Below, one piece after another: positions 5,044 to 46,920 of a DNA stretch of 64,000 nucleotides. The DNA comes from Helicobacteraceae bacterium (GTDB taxonomy: Bacteria > Campylobacterota > Campylobacteria > Campylobacterales > Sulfurimonadaceae), in the NCBI GenBank assembly GCA_013138865.1, contig WTBY01000058.1, positions 1-64,000 of the forward strand. The letters are read 5' to 3'. How positions within the stretch are numbered: the stretch's first letter is position 1; each line of letters opens with the position of its first letter. A program made the position numbers and the translations under genes. The notes beneath the pieces are model-generated. The model saw only the letters and a program-made list of their open reading frames with translations. It made no database searches and had not been told where the DNA came from.

Positions 5044-7320
5044 TTACTCATAAATAGCAGCACAGTTTCGACCACTCTCTTTGGCTTGATACAAAGCCTT
5101 ATCTGCTTCTAAAACCACTTGCTCTACACTCTTGTTACCATTAAAGCTACTTATACCAAAACTTGCACTAATATGTAAATTTCCATCATTAAAGTTATAC
5201 TCGCTAATGATCTTTCTTAGAGTCTGTGCTAAAGATAGACTGTTATTTATATCTGTATGTGGAAGAATAATTAAAAACTCTTCTCCACCCCAACGACCAA
5301 CTATGTCAGTTGAGCGAATATGAGTCTTTATAATTGATGTAAACTCTTTTAAAACTTTATCTCCAACTAGGTGACCATAAGAGTCATTTACATTTTTAAA
5401 GTAGTCAATATCTAAAATTATTACTGCACATAAGTGTTCATATCTTTTAGACAGTTCATACTGTTCGTCTAAAATTTCATCAAGATGAAGCCTATTGTTA
5501 ATACCTGTTAGTTTATCAGTATGAGAGAGAATACGAAGTTTCTCATTTTTATCTCTTAATGTTTTATAGTGATACATAAATGCCATTAGTAAAAGAGCAA
5601 CAATAGCAAAAATTTTAATGATCGGAGTGTAGTCTATTTTTGAACTTACTTCTATAGATACCCAGTCGTTATAGACATGCTGTTTTTCTACTTCAGTTAT
5701 ACTGTTAACTAGTTTTTGAAAAATATCGTGAAGTATAGGTTGATCGTTTCTAGTTCCTATGGCTAGTTCTACATTTTCATTTAGCCTTGAACTGATTTTT
5801 AAACTTCCTGTAAAATTTTTTTGAATATATGAAGCAATAACCATTAAGTTGTCAATGTAGCCATAAAGTTGACCACTCTCTACCATCTCTAAACCTTGCG
5901 TAACAGTCTCAACATCAACTATATTAATATCACTGTACATGGCTCTCAAACTTTCAGCAATAGCATAACCTTTTACAATACCAATTCTTTTAGACCTGAT
6001 GGAAGAAAAATTTTCTATAAAGGGCTTGTCTATCTTGGTAGCAAGTACAATAGGCAAGTCAACATAAGATGTTGTAAAGTCCATGTACTTTAGCCTTTTA
6101 GGAGTTGACGCTGCTAATGTATAGACATCACACTCTCTATTTTTAGCAGCTTTTATACTCTCAGCCCAATTGGTAGTTTGGACAACCTCCATCTTAATGT
6201 TACTTTTGTCTTTTAGAATTTTAAACAGATCCGCAGCTATACCTATATGCTCACTATTTTGTATACTCTCAAATGGCATCCAATCAGGATCAACACATAG
6301 TTTAATAGGCTCTTTTTTCTTAATATATGCACGCTCTTTTTTTGTTAAAGTTATTGTTTGTGCCTTTATCTCTCTTAAAATATCGTTGAAAGTTAATTTA
6401 TCTAGTTTTTGGTTTTTTAATACTTTGTCACTTTTTACAAGCTGTTTATATAGTCTAGTAGTGTATTCACAATTTGTTTCACCTACCTCATGTAGGTCTA
6501 TAAGCATTAGACTTTTTACAATAGATGCCTCATGTAAAAGCTCATCAATAGACTTCTGCGAGGTATACTTTGTGTGAATTATTTCTACAACTTCTTGAGT
6601 ATTCTCAATTGCGTATAACCAACCTTTTTTAGTAGCTGCTAAAAAATTTTTAATCTCCAAAGAGTCAGTAGTAGCTTTTTCATAAGTGCTAAAAAGGTTA
6701 ATGGCATTCGTGACAAACCCATAATCAGCTGGATCAATAACATTAAACTCTATGTTCTCTTTTTCTAAAAAGTAGAGTTCATTTGATCTAAATGCAGCCA
6801 TAACATCAACTTCTCTGTTTTTAAATTTTTCAATATTAAATGTATGTGGTACAAAAGTACTATTTTTAGAGTTTATAAAAAAGTGATCCATTAGAAGTGA
6901 AAGTGAGCTGTTTCCTAAGTTCTCAACAGTACCCATAATTTTTTTATCAACAAATTGAGAAGGTTCTGTAATCTCTTTTTGAGTTACAAAAATAAGCGGA
7001 CTTTTTTGCAAGTACGTAGCTAATAGAACAACATCTTGAAGCTTTTTATCTCTATATATTAAAGGAGAATTCATTAACGCAAAGTCTACACGTTTTGAGA
7101 GTAACTCATCTACTAAATCTACACCATTTTTTAGCTCTACAATATCAACATCTAGTCCTAGATCTTTGTAGAAGCCTTTCTCTTTTGCAACTATAAAACC
7201 TGCAAACTCAAACTGGTACTTCCATTGAAGTTGTAGCTTTACTTTTGTTAGCTCTTCTTGGGCGTAAATGTTTGAAATTAATATAGTTACAATAGTTAAT
7301 AATTTTAAAAATAAATTCAT
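5044..7320 (-). CDS. Ligand-sensing diguanylate cyclase (NMT1 + SBP_bac_3 + GGDEF)
   Basis: A 758-residue membrane sensor. It has a signal peptide (1-20), then an NMT1/THI5-like periplasmic binding domain (about 25-240, with the typical LQLQWKYQFEFAGFIVAKEKGFYKD start), then a second solute-binding domain of the amino-acid type (SBP_bac_3, about 330-550), one transmembrane helix (about 560-580) and a C-terminal GGDEF domain with an intact active site, WGGEEF, near residue 676. It should make c-di-GMP in response to one or two small ligands bound in the periplasm; the ligands cannot be told from sequence. It is convergent with marR, with only 26 bp between the stops. Confidence 0.88.
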   Translation of the reverse strand: MNLFLKLLTIVTILISNIYAQEELTKVKLQLQWKYQFEFAGFIVAKEKGFYKDLGLDVDIVELKNGVDLVDELLSKRVDFALMNSPLIYRDKKLQDVVLLATYLQKSPLIFVTQKEITEPSQFVDKKIMGTVENLGNSSLSLLMDHFFINSKNSTFVPHTFNIEKFKNREVDVMAAFRSNELYFLEKENIEFNVIDPADYGFVTNAINLFSTYEKATTDSLEIKNFLAATKKGWLYAIENTQEVVEIIHTKYTSQKSIDELLHEASIVKSLMLIDLHEVGETNCEYTTRLYKQLVKSDKVLKNQKLDKLTFNDILREIKAQTITLTKKERAYIKKKEPIKLCVDPDWMPFESIQNSEHIGIAADLFKILKDKSNIKMEVVQTTNWAESIKAAKNRECDVYTLAASTPKRLKYMDFTTSYVDLPIVLATKIDKPFIENFSSIRSKRIGIVKGYAIAESLRAMYSDINIVDVETVTQGLEMVESGQLYGYIDNLMVIASYIQKNFTGSLKISSRLNENVELAIGTRNDQPILHDIFQKLVNSITEVEKQHVYNDWVSIEVSSKIDYTPIIKIFAIVALLLMAFMYHYKTLRDKNEKLRILSHTDKLTGINNRLHLDEILDEQYELSKRYEHLCAVIILDIDYFKNVNDSYGHLVGDKVLKEFTSIIKTHIRSTDIVGRWGGEEFLIILPHTDINNSLSLAQTLRKIISEYNFNDGNLHISASFGISSFNGNKSVEQVVLEADKALYQAKESGRNCAAIYE

Positions 7321-41681: not shown

Positions 41682-43520
41682 TTAATAACTCTCTCCAACC
41701 TCTTTATCTTCTAGCATCTCTTCATTAAAACTAACTACTTTGTTTCTTCCACTATTTTTTGCTTGATATAGAGAGATATCTGCAAATTTAATACATTTCC
41801 AAATAGAGTCACTATCTTTTGGAAAGTTTGAACAACCAACACTTAATGTCTTAGAAAAAGATTCTTCATCAGCATGTATATTTTGTTTAGAAAATTCAGT
41901 TCTTATAGCCTCAGCTATTTTAATTATATTCTCTTCTTCACAATTGTAAAGAAGTACTAAAAACTCTTCTCCACCATATCTAATTGCTATATCAGCTTTA
42001 CGAATTTTATTTTTTATTACACCCGAGACAATACGAATAGCTTCATCACCAACGTCATGACCATAGTTGTCATTAATCATTTTAAAATAATCTACATCTA
42101 TCATAAGTACACCATACGTTGTACCTGTCCTAGTTGCTTGAGGAATAGAAACATCAACAAACTCATCTAGAAACTTACGATTATACATATTAGTTAGTTG
42201 ATCTACTCTAGCCATTTGATTAAGAGTTTGCATTAACTTTTTACTTACTATAGCTGGTCTTGCAGTAGTAATATAATCTTCAATATCACTTGTGACAGAT
42301 CTGACATATTCAGTTTGTTCATCACTTTTTGTCACAATAGTAAGAACCAATGTTAACTCATTTGAAATAGAATATGGTAGACATATATGATCTGTTCCCT
42401 CAAAAGTATATAACGGACAAGAATTTTTAAATATGCTTGAATCAACACTAGCATGAATTCGATCTGCTCTACACTCGCCATCTATAATCTCACAGTGACA
42501 ACCTTTTTCTGAGTATACAATTTTCTTAATTTTGTTCATAGTATCTATTTCTATCATTGTAAAATCATCTAGTTTAAAATGATCTCCTAGCACGGATGCT
42601 ATTCTATTATATATATCTTCTATCTCTTTATCATTCTCTATAGTTTGCTTAAACTTATAAATATCTGAGAGTCTTTCTATAGTTGAGTTTATATTTATGA
42701 GAGGATCTTGCTCTTTAATATAGTTTTTATTTTTAATAAATATATATACTTTTTTATCTAACTCTTCAAATGTGTGTTGAAGTTTTTCAAGCATAGTATT
42801 TAACATATTTGCTACAGCACTACTCTCTTTGTTTTGATGTCCTGTTATTCTTGCAGAATAGTCTCCATGATATGCTTTTTGCATAACATCTCTAATAGAG
42901 TAAAAAATGTTCACAAAGGGTTGTATAAACCTATTAATAACTATAAATACAAATATAATAGTAAGAATTGTAATTGCTATGTTGTAAAGGACGGTCTTAA
43001 AACTACTACTTCGTATATCTGTAATATCAATAACCATACTAACAACACCTAACACTTCTCCCTCTTTTGCTTCATGACATGTCATACAGTTTGGAGTTCC
43101 ATATTCAGTAGCTGTAAATGGAATACTAACGCGCATTACGCTTTTATTTGCAGTTTCAGTAGTTAAAGATGCTATTTTCCCCGTTTTTAATACTTGAGTA
43201 TCTATTTTATCTCTTGGGGTTTCATTATTATGACCCTCACCATATTGCTTTATAACGGTAGGTGATCTGGCAATCCAAAGCTCACTAATTTTTTCTGCTG
43301 TTCCAATTTTATCTAGAAAATAATCTCTTTGATCCATTACTCCATTAACCATATGAGAGGTTAACCCAATTTTAACAATTTCAGCAGTTAAGCTTGCTTT
43401 GCTTTCAGCTGTTTTTATTCCGTATTCTCTAAAGTTTACAACAGTACTTACAACCATTGCAATAAAAAATATAGAAAAAATGATAATTAATGATGTAATA
43501 ACTTTTTGTCTTGATTCCAT
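41682..43520 (-). CDS. Membrane diguanylate cyclase with c-type heme sensor domain
   Basis: 612 residues. Membrane helix (about 8-28), a periplasmic DUF3365/Tll0287-like domain with a heme c attachment motif CMTCH (near 147), a second helix (about 178-198), a HAMP-like linker (200-260), a GAF-like region (about 290-420, Cys-rich) and a GGDEF domain with an intact IRYGGEEF (near 517). It should make c-di-GMP in response to redox state or a gas ligand at the heme. It converges on the REC-PAS-HD-GYP gene with 7 bp between stops. Its promoter side now faces the island at 43560, where rnpB would have been its neighbour before the insertion. Confidence 0.87.
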   Translation of the reverse strand: MESRQKVITSLIIIFSIFFIAMVVSTVVNFREYGIKTAESKASLTAEIVKIGLTSHMVNGVMDQRDYFLDKIGTAEKISELWIARSPTVIKQYGEGHNNETPRDKIDTQVLKTGKIASLTTETANKSVMRVSIPFTATEYGTPNCMTCHEAKEGEVLGVVSMVIDITDIRSSSFKTVLYNIAITILTIIFVFIVINRFIQPFVNIFYSIRDVMQKAYHGDYSARITGHQNKESSAVANMLNTMLEKLQHTFEELDKKVYIFIKNKNYIKEQDPLININSTIERLSDIYKFKQTIENDKEIEDIYNRIASVLGDHFKLDDFTMIEIDTMNKIKKIVYSEKGCHCEIIDGECRADRIHASVDSSIFKNSCPLYTFEGTDHICLPYSISNELTLVLTIVTKSDEQTEYVRSVTSDIEDYITTARPAIVSKKLMQTLNQMARVDQLTNMYNRKFLDEFVDVSIPQATRTGTTYGVLMIDVDYFKMINDNYGHDVGDEAIRIVSGVIKNKIRKADIAIRYGGEEFLVLLYNCEEENIIKIAEAIRTEFSKQNIHADEESFSKTLSVGCSNFPKDSDSIWKCIKFADISLYQAKNSGRNKVVSFNEEMLEDKEVGESY

Positions 43521-43559: not shown

Positions 43560-43573
43560 TAGGTACAGCATAA
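43560..43573 (-). repeat. Distal copy of the rnpB 3' end (attachment site repeat)
   Basis: TAGGTACAGCATAA here is identical to 45939-45952, where it is the complement of the last bases of RNase P RNA and two bases beyond. Flanks differ on both sides. Two copies in the same orientation 2.4 kb apart, one at the end of an RNA gene, are the expected product of site-specific integration. Confidence 0.65.
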
Positions 43574-43619
43574 ATTGAGTTGTAAAACATACCTATAACA
43601 AGTGCTTTCGGGCTAAACT

Positions 43620-43674
43620 GTAACAGATTTACTATGATTTGTTGTGTTTACAGTTACAGTTCTGTTACACTTTT
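43620..43674. repeat. GTAACAG-type repeats near the left end of the mini-island
   Basis: GTAACAG at 43620-43626, its reverse complement CTGTTAC at 43662-43668, a variant GTTACAG at 43653-43659, and TTACACTTTT at 43665-43674. The set lies 47-101 bp inside the left repeat. Likely recombinase arm sites; the shared TTACACTTTT with 23109-23118 supports this. Confidence 0.4.
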
Positions 43675-43733
43675 CTTAATCGAATTCTATCATAAATTAT
43701 ATTTAATTTTAGATATACTTTCATTGTTACAAG

Positions 43734-43810
43734 TAGTGTGTTTCTTGGATAGGCTTGGGTGTATTTAGGGAATGGAGTTAGTTGGGTGTCTCCAGAAAGG
43801 AAACACACTA
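43734..43810 (+). promoter_or_regulatory. Translation-masking hairpin over a micro-ORF start
   Basis: TAGTGTGTTTC (43734-43744) and GAAACACACTA (43800-43810) are a perfect 11-bp inverted repeat. The right arm begins at the end of the AAAGG ribosome site and includes the A of the ATG at 43810. In mRNA this long-range stem would hide ribosome site and start codon. GGA/TCC inside extends it. A TATACT -10 at 43714-43719 would start the transcript just before the left arm. Confidence 0.5.
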
Positions 43811-43866
43811 TGAATTTATTCTTTGTGTTAGTGGTTTTAATGGTATTAGCCGTACCTTTATATTAA
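43810..43866 (+). CDS. 18-residue hydrophobic peptide with masked start
   Basis: ATG with AGAAAGGA 7-14 bp upstream encodes MNLFFVLVVLMVLAVPLY, nearly all hydrophobic: a single short membrane helix. Size, hydrophobicity and the masking stem over its ribosome site resemble type I toxins, which in Campylobacterota include the AapA peptides of Helicobacter, though the sequence is not similar to those. A regulatory leader or chance ORF is possible. A GAGC/GCTC hairpin follows at about 43871-43886. Confidence 0.4.
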   Translation: MNLFFVLVVLMVLAVPLY

Positions 43867-43916
43867 AACTTGGGAGCTTTTCGCTCTCAATCCACTAATG
43901 CAATTGTAACATAATT

Positions 43917-44369
43917 TTAACTCATCGGTATATTAATATATTCAACTACTCTATTATCTCTAAGAAAATATTTTGCTGAATTGTCTAAAATATTATGAGG
44001 TGTTATATATAACCTTTTAATTTTATACCCCTCTGCTTCTTTATTATTGTTCTCTAAAAATGCTGTTGTATTTCCTACAAACTCTTTTAAAAGCTTATGA
44101 GTTATTTTGTATTTACTATCTTGTTTCCAGTTCTTACACTGTATTAATGAAATTTCTTTATCTTTCATAATGATTACATCAATACCTTTGTCTTTTCTAC
44201 CATGTATAGTTTCTTTGCTTCTATTTTTCTGTTCCAACTCTTTAAACCATGTACCTCTATTTACTTTTAACAGTTTTCCAACTTCTTTGTAAGTGTATAA
44301 AAATACTATAAACATCATTAATAATGAAACAAGTGCATAAACTCCATAACTCATACTAAACTCAATCAT
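43917..44369 (-). CDS. Membrane-anchored Mrr-like restriction endonuclease
   Basis: 150 residues. One N-terminal membrane helix (about 8-26, YALVSLLMMFIVFLYTY), then a compact PD-(D/E)XK domain of the Mrr_cat type: GRKDKGIDVIIMKDKEISLI (with the catalytic Asp in GIDVI) followed by QCKNW (the Q-C-K form of the motif typical of Mrr). Mrr enzymes cleave modified or foreign DNA; one fixed to the membrane could act on incoming DNA. There is no partner methylase. It starts 8 bp after the pentapeptide gene, so they form an operon. Confidence 0.72.
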   Translation of the reverse strand: MIEFSMSYGVYALVSLLMMFIVFLYTYKEVGKLLKVNRGTWFKELEQKNRSKETIHGRKDKGIDVIIMKDKEISLIQCKNWKQDSKYKITHKLLKEFVGNTTAFLENNNKEAEGYKIKRLYITPHNILDNSAKYFLRDNRVVEYINIPMS

Positions 44370-44377
44370 TATTTGCC

Positions 44378-45679
44378 CTACTTCCTTGTATCTTTTCTAA
44401 CTGCTGTTATAAATTGATAATACAAGTAACCTAGTGATACTTTGTTAAATAAAAAAATTATTGGATGATTTTCAAAATGATTAAACTTCAATATTGACAT
44501 ATATTTAAATCCATCGTATAGTAATTCTAATGGTGTTTTTAAACAATTGTAATTAACTATTGTACTTGTTATATTACCAATAATTATAATCCAAATTATT
44601 GGATATAGCCAATTAGTTGCAAATTTTGAAGTCATCCAATTTATATTAAATACTATTGTTTCAAGAGGTTTTTCCATAAATTTTAAATTATCTTTTTGTT
44701 TTTCAAGCTCTAATGCATGATACTTATTTGCATCAATAATATTCCCTATTTTTTCTAAATTATATTTTATTATTCTATATGTTTCTTGAGAAGTTAATAT
44801 CTTACTTTGTTCACTTTCTAGTTCTTTTATATTATAAAAGTTCATTGCTTTTTCTGTATTTGTTCTATCTAAGTCTAGTCCATTATGAAATGTAGCCCCT
44901 CTAAATTGTACTAAATCTTCAAATGTTATATATTGAAAAGTTAGTTTATTTAAAAATTCACATTCTTCAAATATTGTAATTTTTTTGAAGTTAGTTCCCT
45001 CAATTATTATGTCTTTTTTATCTCCTTGATTAACTTTTGATTTATAGAAATCTGCATTTTTATTGAAATCTACATCACTTAATTTAAATAAATTTATATC
45101 AGTATTATGAAGTTTAAAATTTTCATTAAAAGTATTTTCTTGTATTTCTAAATAATTAATCTTGACTTTTGATTTATTTGATTTTTGTTCATTGATATAG
45201 AACTTTCCAGTAAATTCACATTTATTAATATTGAATTTGTTTCTAAAAGTTCCGCCAATAAATTTTATGTCATATTTATTTTGAGTTATTTCATTACTTG
45301 CAATGACATCCTTAAAAGATATTTCATCAAAGTTACAATGATTAAATATATAATTGTATTTAAGTTCTCCAGTTATTTTTGTTATTCCATTAAATTGACA
45401 ACCAGCAAAGTATATAGTACTTCCACCATAATTACATATATCAGTAATTTTTATTATTTCTTTTTTATTATTTCTTGTAAATTCTATTACATCACTATTT
45501 ATTATTATAGAATTTAAAATTGTTATTCCAATATGTAGGACGGTTCTTCTATTAGCTATACCGTCATAGCTTGCGACACCTTCTCGTCTACTTATTTCAA
45601 TCCAGTGTTTATCAATAAATAATATTTCTTGTTCATCTTTTTTTTTTGATTTAATTATACTATTAAAAGGTATTTTCAT
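44378..45679 (-). CDS. Pentapeptide-repeat membrane protein
   Basis: 433 residues. The middle (about 80-280) shows degenerate pentapeptide repeats of the A/F(N/D)xxF kind (for instance FNKNADFYKS, TNFKKITIFEECEF, VQFRGATFHNGLDLDRTNTE), a right-handed beta-helix. The C-terminus has two membrane helices (FATNWLYPIIWIIIIGNIT and IIFLFNKVSLGYLYYQFITA) ending in AVRKDTRK, a tail common in membrane pentapeptide proteins. Function unknown. AT content is very high even for this genome. It is preceded by a 28-residue ORF and followed by the Mrr-like gene. Confidence 0.72.
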   Translation of the reverse strand: MKIPFNSIIKSKKKDEQEILFIDKHWIEISRREGVASYDGIANRRTVLHIGITILNSIIINSDVIEFTRNNKKEIIKITDICNYGGSTIYFAGCQFNGITKITGELKYNYIFNHCNFDEISFKDVIASNEITQNKYDIKFIGGTFRNKFNINKCEFTGKFYINEQKSNKSKVKINYLEIQENTFNENFKLHNTDINLFKLSDVDFNKNADFYKSKVNQGDKKDIIIEGTNFKKITIFEECEFLNKLTFQYITFEDLVQFRGATFHNGLDLDRTNTEKAMNFYNIKELESEQSKILTSQETYRIIKYNLEKIGNIIDANKYHALELEKQKDNLKFMEKPLETIVFNINWMTSKFATNWLYPIIWIIIIGNITSTIVNYNCLKTPLELLYDGFKYMSILKFNHFENHPIIFLFNKVSLGYLYYQFITAVRKDTRK

Positions 45680-45685
45680 TTTACT

Positions 45686-45772
45686 TCAACTTAAACTTGC
45701 CATTACTAGCTTCTCTAAATGCTTTCTCGTAGCTTCTATACTTTCATCTAGTGCTAAACCTTGGTTGTTCAT
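45686..45772 (-). CDS. 28-residue ORF ahead of the pentapeptide gene
   Basis: ATG at 45772 with AAGAG upstream and a TATAAT box (rc) at 45806-45811 encodes a mostly helical, charged peptide containing LALDESIEATRKHLEKLVMA. It ends 6 bp before the pentapeptide start, so translation could be coupled. It may be a leader peptide, a small antitoxin-like protein or the remnant of a longer gene. I do not recognise it. Confidence 0.35.
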   Translation of the reverse strand: MNNQGLALDESIEATRKHLEKLVMASLS

Positions 45773-45805
45773 ATATTGCTCTTTTTAATAGTAAATTATG
45801 TGACT

Positions 45806-45811
45806 ATTATA
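45806..45811 (-). promoter_or_regulatory. -10 box of the mini-island operon
   Basis: TATAAT on the minus strand, 33 bp before the ATG of the 28-residue ORF. It would drive that ORF, the pentapeptide gene and the Mrr-like gene as one unit. Confidence 0.45.
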
Positions 45812-45938
45812 CCATTAACTTTTAGTAAAATTAGATTGATTTAAAAGTGATAAATATATCTTCTATCTTTAATCTTTACAGCTACAATAGATAAGAAAAT
45901 GAGATTAGTTCCCTTGAAAACAGGGGTTTAGAAGGTTT

Positions 45939-45952
45939 TAGGTACAGCATAA
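45939..45952 (-). repeat. Proximal attachment repeat at the 3' end of rnpB
   Basis: TAGGTACAGCATAA, the complement of the rnpB 3' end (TTATGCTGTACC) plus two bases. It matches 43560-43573 exactly. Confidence 0.65.
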
Positions 45953-46270
45953 GCCGGATTCTGTCTTGGGTAATTATTAATCTATAATACTTTTTACAAA
46001 GTATCTCTAGCGAAACAATAGCATTGATATAAATATCATGTAAGATGCTAACCATCTGTTTCTTGCTGCCAAGTTGGGTTTACAAGCTCTAAGTATTGCT
46101 ACAAAGACTGGTGGGCTCTTACTCCACCTTTTCACCTTTACCACAGTTGTGGAAGTAATATTTCTGTTGCACTTTCCCTCAGCTTACGCCGGTCATCAGT
46201 TAGATGAAACTCTCTCTTACAGCAGCCCGGACTTTCCTCTTGAATAATTCAAGCAATTACCAGCTGTACC
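45941..46270 (-). ncRNA. rnpB: RNase P RNA component
   Basis: Catalytic RNA that trims the 5' leader from pre-tRNAs. Read on the minus strand it begins GGTACAGCTGG, followed by GAGGAAAGTCCGGGC (conserved region I), GAGGGAAAGTGCAACAGAAA, AGGTGAAAAGGTGGAGTAAG, and ends ACAGAATCCGGCTTA then TGCTGTACC. The first and last eight bases (GGTACAGC and GCTGTACC) pair to form helix P1. Length is about 330 nt, normal for the A type. Its 3' end serves as the attachment site of the mini-island. Confidence 0.93.
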
Positions 46271-46276
46271 TATGAA

Positions 46277-46365: not shown

Positions 46366-46920
46366 CTAAGCCATATCCGCTTTTGCATATTTTTCACCAA
46401 GCTCGTAAGCTTTTTTATTAACATCGTGAACTTTAGCAGGTACTTTTGAAAGCATAACTTCGATCAATTGATCTTTATCAAGTGCTTTCATCATTGTATT
46501 TGCAATAGCAAGCGCAACTACTGACTGAGTAATTACATTTCCTACTTCTTCTTTAGCAATAGTAATAATTGGAATCTCATGAATATTCCAAGTTTTTCTA
46601 TCTTCATCAGTTGGATGTACAAGGTTAGGATCAACAACAATTGTTCCACCTTTAGAAACACCATCTTTAAATAGGTCATAACTTTTTTGTGCAACTGAAA
46701 GCATAAAGTCAATTTCACCATCATTTGCATAAGGGTAATAGATCTCTTTATCATCTAGTTGAATATCAACAACAGTTGCTCCACCACGAACTTGTGATGT
46801 ATACGTTGCAGTTTTTAATCCATGACCACCAGCTTTAATTTTTGCAGCTGCAAAAATTTCTCCAGCAAGAAGAACACCTTGTCCACCAACACCTGTAAAT
46901 CTCATTAATATTTTACTCAT
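46366..46920 (-). CDS. oorC: 2-oxoglutarate:ferredoxin oxidoreductase, gamma subunit
   Basis: 184 residues of the pyruvate/ketoisovalerate oxidoreductase catalytic (gamma) domain: FTGVGGQGVLLAGEIFAAAK at the N-terminus and SQVRGGATVVDIQLDD near 43, both typical. With OorA, B and D it forms the enzyme that reversibly joins succinyl-CoA, CO2 and reduced ferredoxin to 2-oxoglutarate, a key carboxylation of the reductive TCA cycle. Last gene of the operon, 9 bp after oorB, with the hairpin terminator behind it. Confidence 0.93.
   Translation of the reverse strand: MSKILMRFTGVGGQGVLLAGEIFAAAKIKAGGHGLKTATYTSQVRGGATVVDIQLDDKEIYYPYANDGEIDFMLSVAQKSYDLFKDGVSKGGTIVVDPNLVHPTDEDRKTWNIHEIPIITIAKEEVGNVITQSVVALAIANTMMKALDKDQLIEVMLSKVPAKVHDVNKKAYELGEKYAKADMA

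Follow-up and report, generated by a model that had tools for sequence, protein, structure and literature searches.

Integration of mobile elements at transfer RNA (tRNA) and transfer-messenger RNA (tmRNA) genes is textbook knowledge. Cis-mobilisable elements (CIMEs) and cryptic prophages, which derive from integrative and conjugative elements and from phages, have an attachment (att) site at both ends and no integrase, and keep accessory genes. Islander, which detects genomic islands at RNA genes, searches only tRNA and tmRNA genes (PMC12424338). In the deep-sea Campylobacterota, the temperate phages NrS-1 to NrS-5 of Nitratiruptor integrate at tRNA-Asn, tRNA-Arg and tRNA-Ser genes (PMC9723563). 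Here we describe a 2.4-kb element located at rnpB, the gene of the RNase P RNA, in the first 64,000 nucleotides of contig WTBY01000058.1 of a Helicobacteraceae bacterium assigned to the Sulfurimonadaceae (this whole stretch is called the window below). We consider it very probable that the segment 43560-45952 is the remnant of a mobile element integrated by a tyrosine recombinase at the 3' end of rnpB, most likely an integrase-less leftover from a phage family that uses rnpB as a docking site in related bacteria. As in islands of the Islander kind, the element would have entered an RNA gene at its 3' end, the gene being restored by the element's own copy, with a direct repeat at the far end, but the target is rnpB and the window copy has no integrase. 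The Nitratiruptor phages are comparable by their structural RNA gene targets and by the same broad type of tyrosine integrase, whereas they use tRNA genes and are whole phage genomes with an integrase. The two att ends, the missing integrase and the kept accessory genes are those of a CIME or cryptic prophage, except that the element lies at rnpB and that its mobilisation in trans is hypothetical.

The target gene (45935-46272, minus strand) encodes a class A RNase P RNA (RF00010, 239.4 bits, positions 1-367 of 367). The 14-mer TAGGTACAGCATAA is found at 43560-43573 and at 45939-45952, in the same orientation and with 0 mismatches, as an earlier note made from the sequence of this locus had reported. 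No third copy is present anywhere in the 3.03-Mb genome, so the 14-mer is not the common sequence that, according to the same note, would have spoken against integration. The copy at rnpB (attL side, minus strand), read as TTATGCTGTACCTA, corresponds to the 3' strand of helix P1, because GCTGTACCTA within the core can pair with the 5' end of the gene, TAGGTACAGC. The copy at 43560-43573 (minus strand) is the distal core. When the last 30 nucleotides of rnpB were compared with the 10 kb downstream, the longest exact repeat was 14, and only 2 of 3000 dinucleotide shuffles gave a repeat of at least this length. The element so delimited measures 2393 bp and is indeed AT-rich, with 25% GC against 33% in the rest of the window. 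The absence of the palindrome CGATCG, also put forward as a sign of foreign origin, is real (41 occurrences in the window, 0 in the element), but it is a weak and uninformative argument because only about 1.5 copies would be expected in the element.

The distal end was compared with phage att ends by means of a profile of the arms lying upstream of the core in two viral contigs (G475 and G476), from which the core was excluded and which was run over the whole window. The sole significant match, at 43586-43675 on the minus strand (E 6.8e-7; next match, E 4.8), adjoins the distal 14-mer. This arm includes CATAGTAAATCTGTTACA at 43619-43636, and AACTC stands directly ahead of the core region in the element, likewise in the phages. 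Lying beside the distal 14-mer, the arm match indicates that the distal end of the element is a phage attR.

The proteins of the window have their nearest matches in Sulfurimonas and other Sulfurimonadaceae, and the rnpB loci of 48 genomes of this family, each extended on the 3' side by as much as about 10 kb, were compared. The order oorC-rnpB is widely kept among them, the oorC-like gene forming the chromosomal flank before rnpB in the window (46366-46920, minus strand) and standing upstream of rnpB in many relatives, while what follows rnpB differs among all the relatives compared. The check that the earlier note had proposed, a search for other islands at rnpB that carry an integrase, was positive in the Sulfurimonadaceae and in one other family: a tyrosine integrase of one type lies directly at the 3' end of rnpB in G050, G023, G033, G008, G037, G427, G101 and the viral contig G474. 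Four of these elements (G050, G023, G033 and G474) repeat the rnpB end at their far side. The most compact of the measured ones, in G050, is bounded by 19 bases, CGGCTTACGTTGTACCTAT, at the rnpB end, which recur 7.36 kb downstream, and encodes a 354-residue tyrosine integrase whose stop codon lies 71 bp after rnpB, together with small proteins, a 609-residue protein resembling an ATPase and, just before the distal repeat, an Mrr-like protein. The distal repeat is 36.96 kb from the rnpB end in G023 and 35.34 kb in G033. The integrases of G008 and G037 are cut by the contig end, G427 (Sulfurimonadaceae) shows an integrase fragment between rnpB and the contig end, and a degenerate integrase is present at the rnpB end of G025. 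G101 belongs to another Campylobacterales family, and its element (L221), in which genes resembling the conjugation genes TraH and TraG were noted by eye further in, ends in the integrase at rnpB; conjugative elements may therefore also use this site.

Among the viral contigs, the 38.6-kb G474 begins within a host rnpB, after which comes an integrase sharing 63% identity with the G050 protein, and carries a slightly changed copy of the core at its far end, while the 7.7-kb contig G478 has the core beside an integrase without rnpB, as expected of an attP. A 17-mer search of the viral contigs returned three att-bearing contigs and three chance-like matches inside unrelated sequence. In the integrase tree, the rnpB integrases form one supported group of ten rows (Shimodaira-Hasegawa-like approximate likelihood ratio test, SH-aLRT, 99), two of which are not shown to lie at rnpB: in one case the contig stops at the integrase, and the other, the second-best integrase match, comes from a prophage (G339) that has Zot- and secretin-like genes, as judged by eye, but lacks a nearby rnpB. 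The nearest described phage integrases are those of the Nitratiruptor phages, 33-36% identical to the G050 protein. Judged from these sequences, rnpB serves as an attachment site in the Sulfurimonadaceae and in one other Campylobacterales family, and the proposal of the earlier note that its 3' end is used for integration is borne out by the integrases found there in relatives and by the att arm of their family at the distal core. It is accordingly very improbable that no mobile element is involved and that ordinary AT-rich accessory genes are flanked by a 14-bp repeat which arose by chance or by a small duplication at the end of rnpB; the shortness of the repeat, the variability of the DNA behind rnpB and the failure to find an empty site would fit such a view, but the rarity of the repeat among shuffled sequences and its coincidence with the core of integrase-bearing elements, flanked by their att arm, argue against it.

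Several observations nevertheless weigh against an integrated remnant and have to be set beside this evidence. The repeat is just 14 bp long, with 14 exact bases in the window against 19-20 bp in the rnpB-integrated relatives. The left arm is barely recognisable, and the left-end profile is not significant alone; the rnpB flanks of L055 and L062 also scored with it, yet they have neither an integrase nor a distal core. Beyond attR, the chromosomal flank is a heme-type GGDEF gene (41682-43520, minus strand; PF00990) whose orthologues in relatives are 71-83% identical. In the relatives compared it never adjoins rnpB, so that a local rearrangement is possible, and none of the 48 genomes of the family has the far-side genes of the window after rnpB. 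No congener was present among 100 relatives and no empty site was found. Finally, the pentapeptide-repeat protein encoded by the element (see below) has no match in the phage records or viral contigs searched.

The left end retains two features that can be aligned with the complete elements. A hairpin, CCCCTGTTTTCAAGGG, follows rnpB at 45911-45926 (minus strand) and is a probable terminator according to alignment and folding, although it is not significant alone; the integrase-bearing elements have a hairpin at an equal distance from rnpB. On their left side, these elements also show a pair of arm sites at a distance of about 45-60 bp from the core, the first of which is in register with TGTAGC at 45881-45886 (minus strand) of the window, a possible remaining arm site that is suggestive only, while the second is missing. 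No integrase or integrase remnant could be detected in the element, in agreement with the earlier note, and no phage structural gene was found among its open frames. The element is thus considered as a derivative, and not an autonomous member, of the rnpB-integrating elements, since both the integrase and any remnant of it are absent.

The alternatives of a satellite or a decayed element, both named in the earlier note, still stand, with decay favoured over a helper-dependent satellite because the integrase is gone, no more than a single in-register arm site can be made out on the left and the Mrr gene has lost part of its length. A functional, cis-mobilisable satellite without integrase, excised and moved in trans by the rnpB-type integrase of a co-infecting phage, seems unlikely to us. 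It would agree with the att sites at both ends in the absence of an integrase, the two exact cores, the well conserved distal arm, the three accessory genes that are still open and the frequency of rnpB-type integrases in the family. However, of the two left arm sites just one can be recognised, the Mrr gene is shorter than its relatives, no second copy was found in another genome and no integrase of the rnpB clade was found in the own genome. Its integrases closest to the rnpB type (contigs C58 and C40, about 32% identity) were considered as helpers but rejected, since the tree places them outside the rnpB clade. We regard as similarly doubtful the wider scheme in which a clade of Campylobacterota phage integrases uses rnpB as attB, each insertion swapping the P1 strand and the terminator of the RNase P RNA, and in which the 2.4-kb element would be an integrase-free satellite riding this clade and spreading a defence cargo (the toxin-like peptide, Mrr and a restriction-associated pentapeptide protein).

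For the integrated and later decayed element that we prefer, the following course can be proposed. Before insertion, rnpB ending in TTATGCTGTACCTA would have been followed by CTATAAAATAATTATTTAAAATAAACAGG and then by the GGDEF gene, with a single core. A phage, or else a satellite, that encoded an integrase of the rnpB type would have inserted at the P1 strand of rnpB; the RNase P RNA would have been kept whole because the core of the element copies the 3' strand of helix P1, and would thus have been restored by that core, while the native downstream DNA was displaced and the left end of the element provided a new tail and terminator for rnpB. Later deletions in this lineage would have removed the integrase and nearly all of the body, leaving behind the accessory genes of the attR side (toxin-like peptide and Mrr-like nuclease) and the pentapeptide-repeat gene, a cargo that may have served defence or maintenance.

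Accessory genes had been announced between the repeats, and three were recognised. The first from the attR side is a type I toxin-like gene of an 18-residue hydrophobic peptide, MNLFFVLVVLMVLAVPLY (43810-43866, plus strand), conserved in G405, where it occurs in two copies, and in G293. A predicted 5' hairpin (43728-43829, plus strand) covers its ribosome-binding site, the fold of 43725-43890 reaching -45.9 kcal/mol (z -2.7), and the predicted pairing over the ribosome-binding site is similar in both G405 copies. Among 399 genomes of the order, the pattern VVLMVLAxPL[YF] was met, besides the own genome of the window, only in G405 (two copies) and G293; the loci of this family are 43810-43866 of the window, about 5736-5792 and about 18362-18418 of L254, and about 4195-4250 of L257. 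Ibs of Escherichia coli is a type I toxin of the class of hydrophobic peptides of about 18 residues. The window peptide resembles Ibs-like toxins by its 18 hydrophobic residues and the predicted hairpin over the ribosome-binding site of its mRNA, the comparison being made by these features alone, and differs from them in that peptides of its type stand beside phage att ends. Such peptides, with their hairpins, are therefore considered here as a candidate type I toxin family.

In G405, the peptide gene stands beside the att site of tandem prophages at tRNA-Ser and is followed by an Mrr gene, in the same order as in the window element. These inovirus-type prophages have a Zot protein, a pIV-type secretin, a replication protein and an integrase, all of which are lacking in the window element, and no Zot match was found in the own genome. 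In the G405 array (L254-L256), at least two prophages of filamentous type stand in tandem and end at tRNA-Ser; the array also contains a third copy of the integrase.

The second gene encodes a shortened Mrr-like nuclease of 150 residues (43917-44369, minus strand; PF13156/PF04471). Its residues 55-150 are 82% identical to a 273-residue Mrr protein encoded by contig C58 of the own genome, whose front part it lacks. This contig (L276, 3755 bp) carries an integrase and the Mrr-like gene close to that of the window, and its ends show an inverted repeat of about 120 bp that may be an assembly effect.

The third gene encodes a 433-residue pentapeptide-repeat protein with hydrophobic C-terminal segments (44378-45679, minus strand; PF13576, E 4.8e-9) and is preceded by a putative open reading frame of 28 codons read from the sequence (45686-45772, minus strand). 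When ten homologues were inspected, two adjoined MmeI-type enzymes, one was flanked by the mod-like and the res-like gene of a type III system, and another followed a type I HsdR gene. Their frequent position in restriction-modification loci suggests a restriction-linked role for the protein. More generally, this family of pentapeptide-repeat membrane proteins is met repeatedly in Campylobacterales (L227, L230, L234 and L235), within restriction-modification loci of type I, type III and MmeI type or next to them. It is possible, although we hold this only tentatively, that the remnant is composite, its peptide-Mrr end coming from one phage and its pentapeptide gene having been acquired independently through recombination at the rnpB hotspot, a restriction-modification locus being one conceivable source. 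The genomic context of the homologues, which were not found in phages, and the phage type of the peptide and Mrr genes at the attR end point in this direction, whereas no junction or extra repeat was identified inside the element and its GC content is low throughout. Such a composite origin would refine, rather than oppose, the integrated remnant described above.

The rnpB genes of the relatives are themselves variable. Many of those of the Sulfurimonadaceae measure 440-595 nucleotides and contain highly paired inserts near position 125 (loci L037, L039, L042, L044, L052, L053, L056, L061, L066 and L071). The sequence GCTTTAGTGCCATAGCGGCCAGCGTAGG is common to most of these genes and occurs twice in three of them. 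The 2.9 Mb of DNA compared showed no occurrence of it outside rnpB, a match in L275 being the rnpB of L039 again.

In the open-access literature, we met with no description of integration at rnpB, subscription papers being outside the scope of this search. The kind of process is known, and what appears to be new is that rnpB is the target, and that it is so repeatedly for a single integrase clade in two families. Since the att core forms one of the two strands of helix P1, a phage of this type must fit the rnpB of its host to keep RNase P working, and it thereby becomes directly testable whether att sites and an essential ribozyme have co-evolved. For work on Campylobacterota, the rnpB-type integrases might in addition be of use as site-specific tools.
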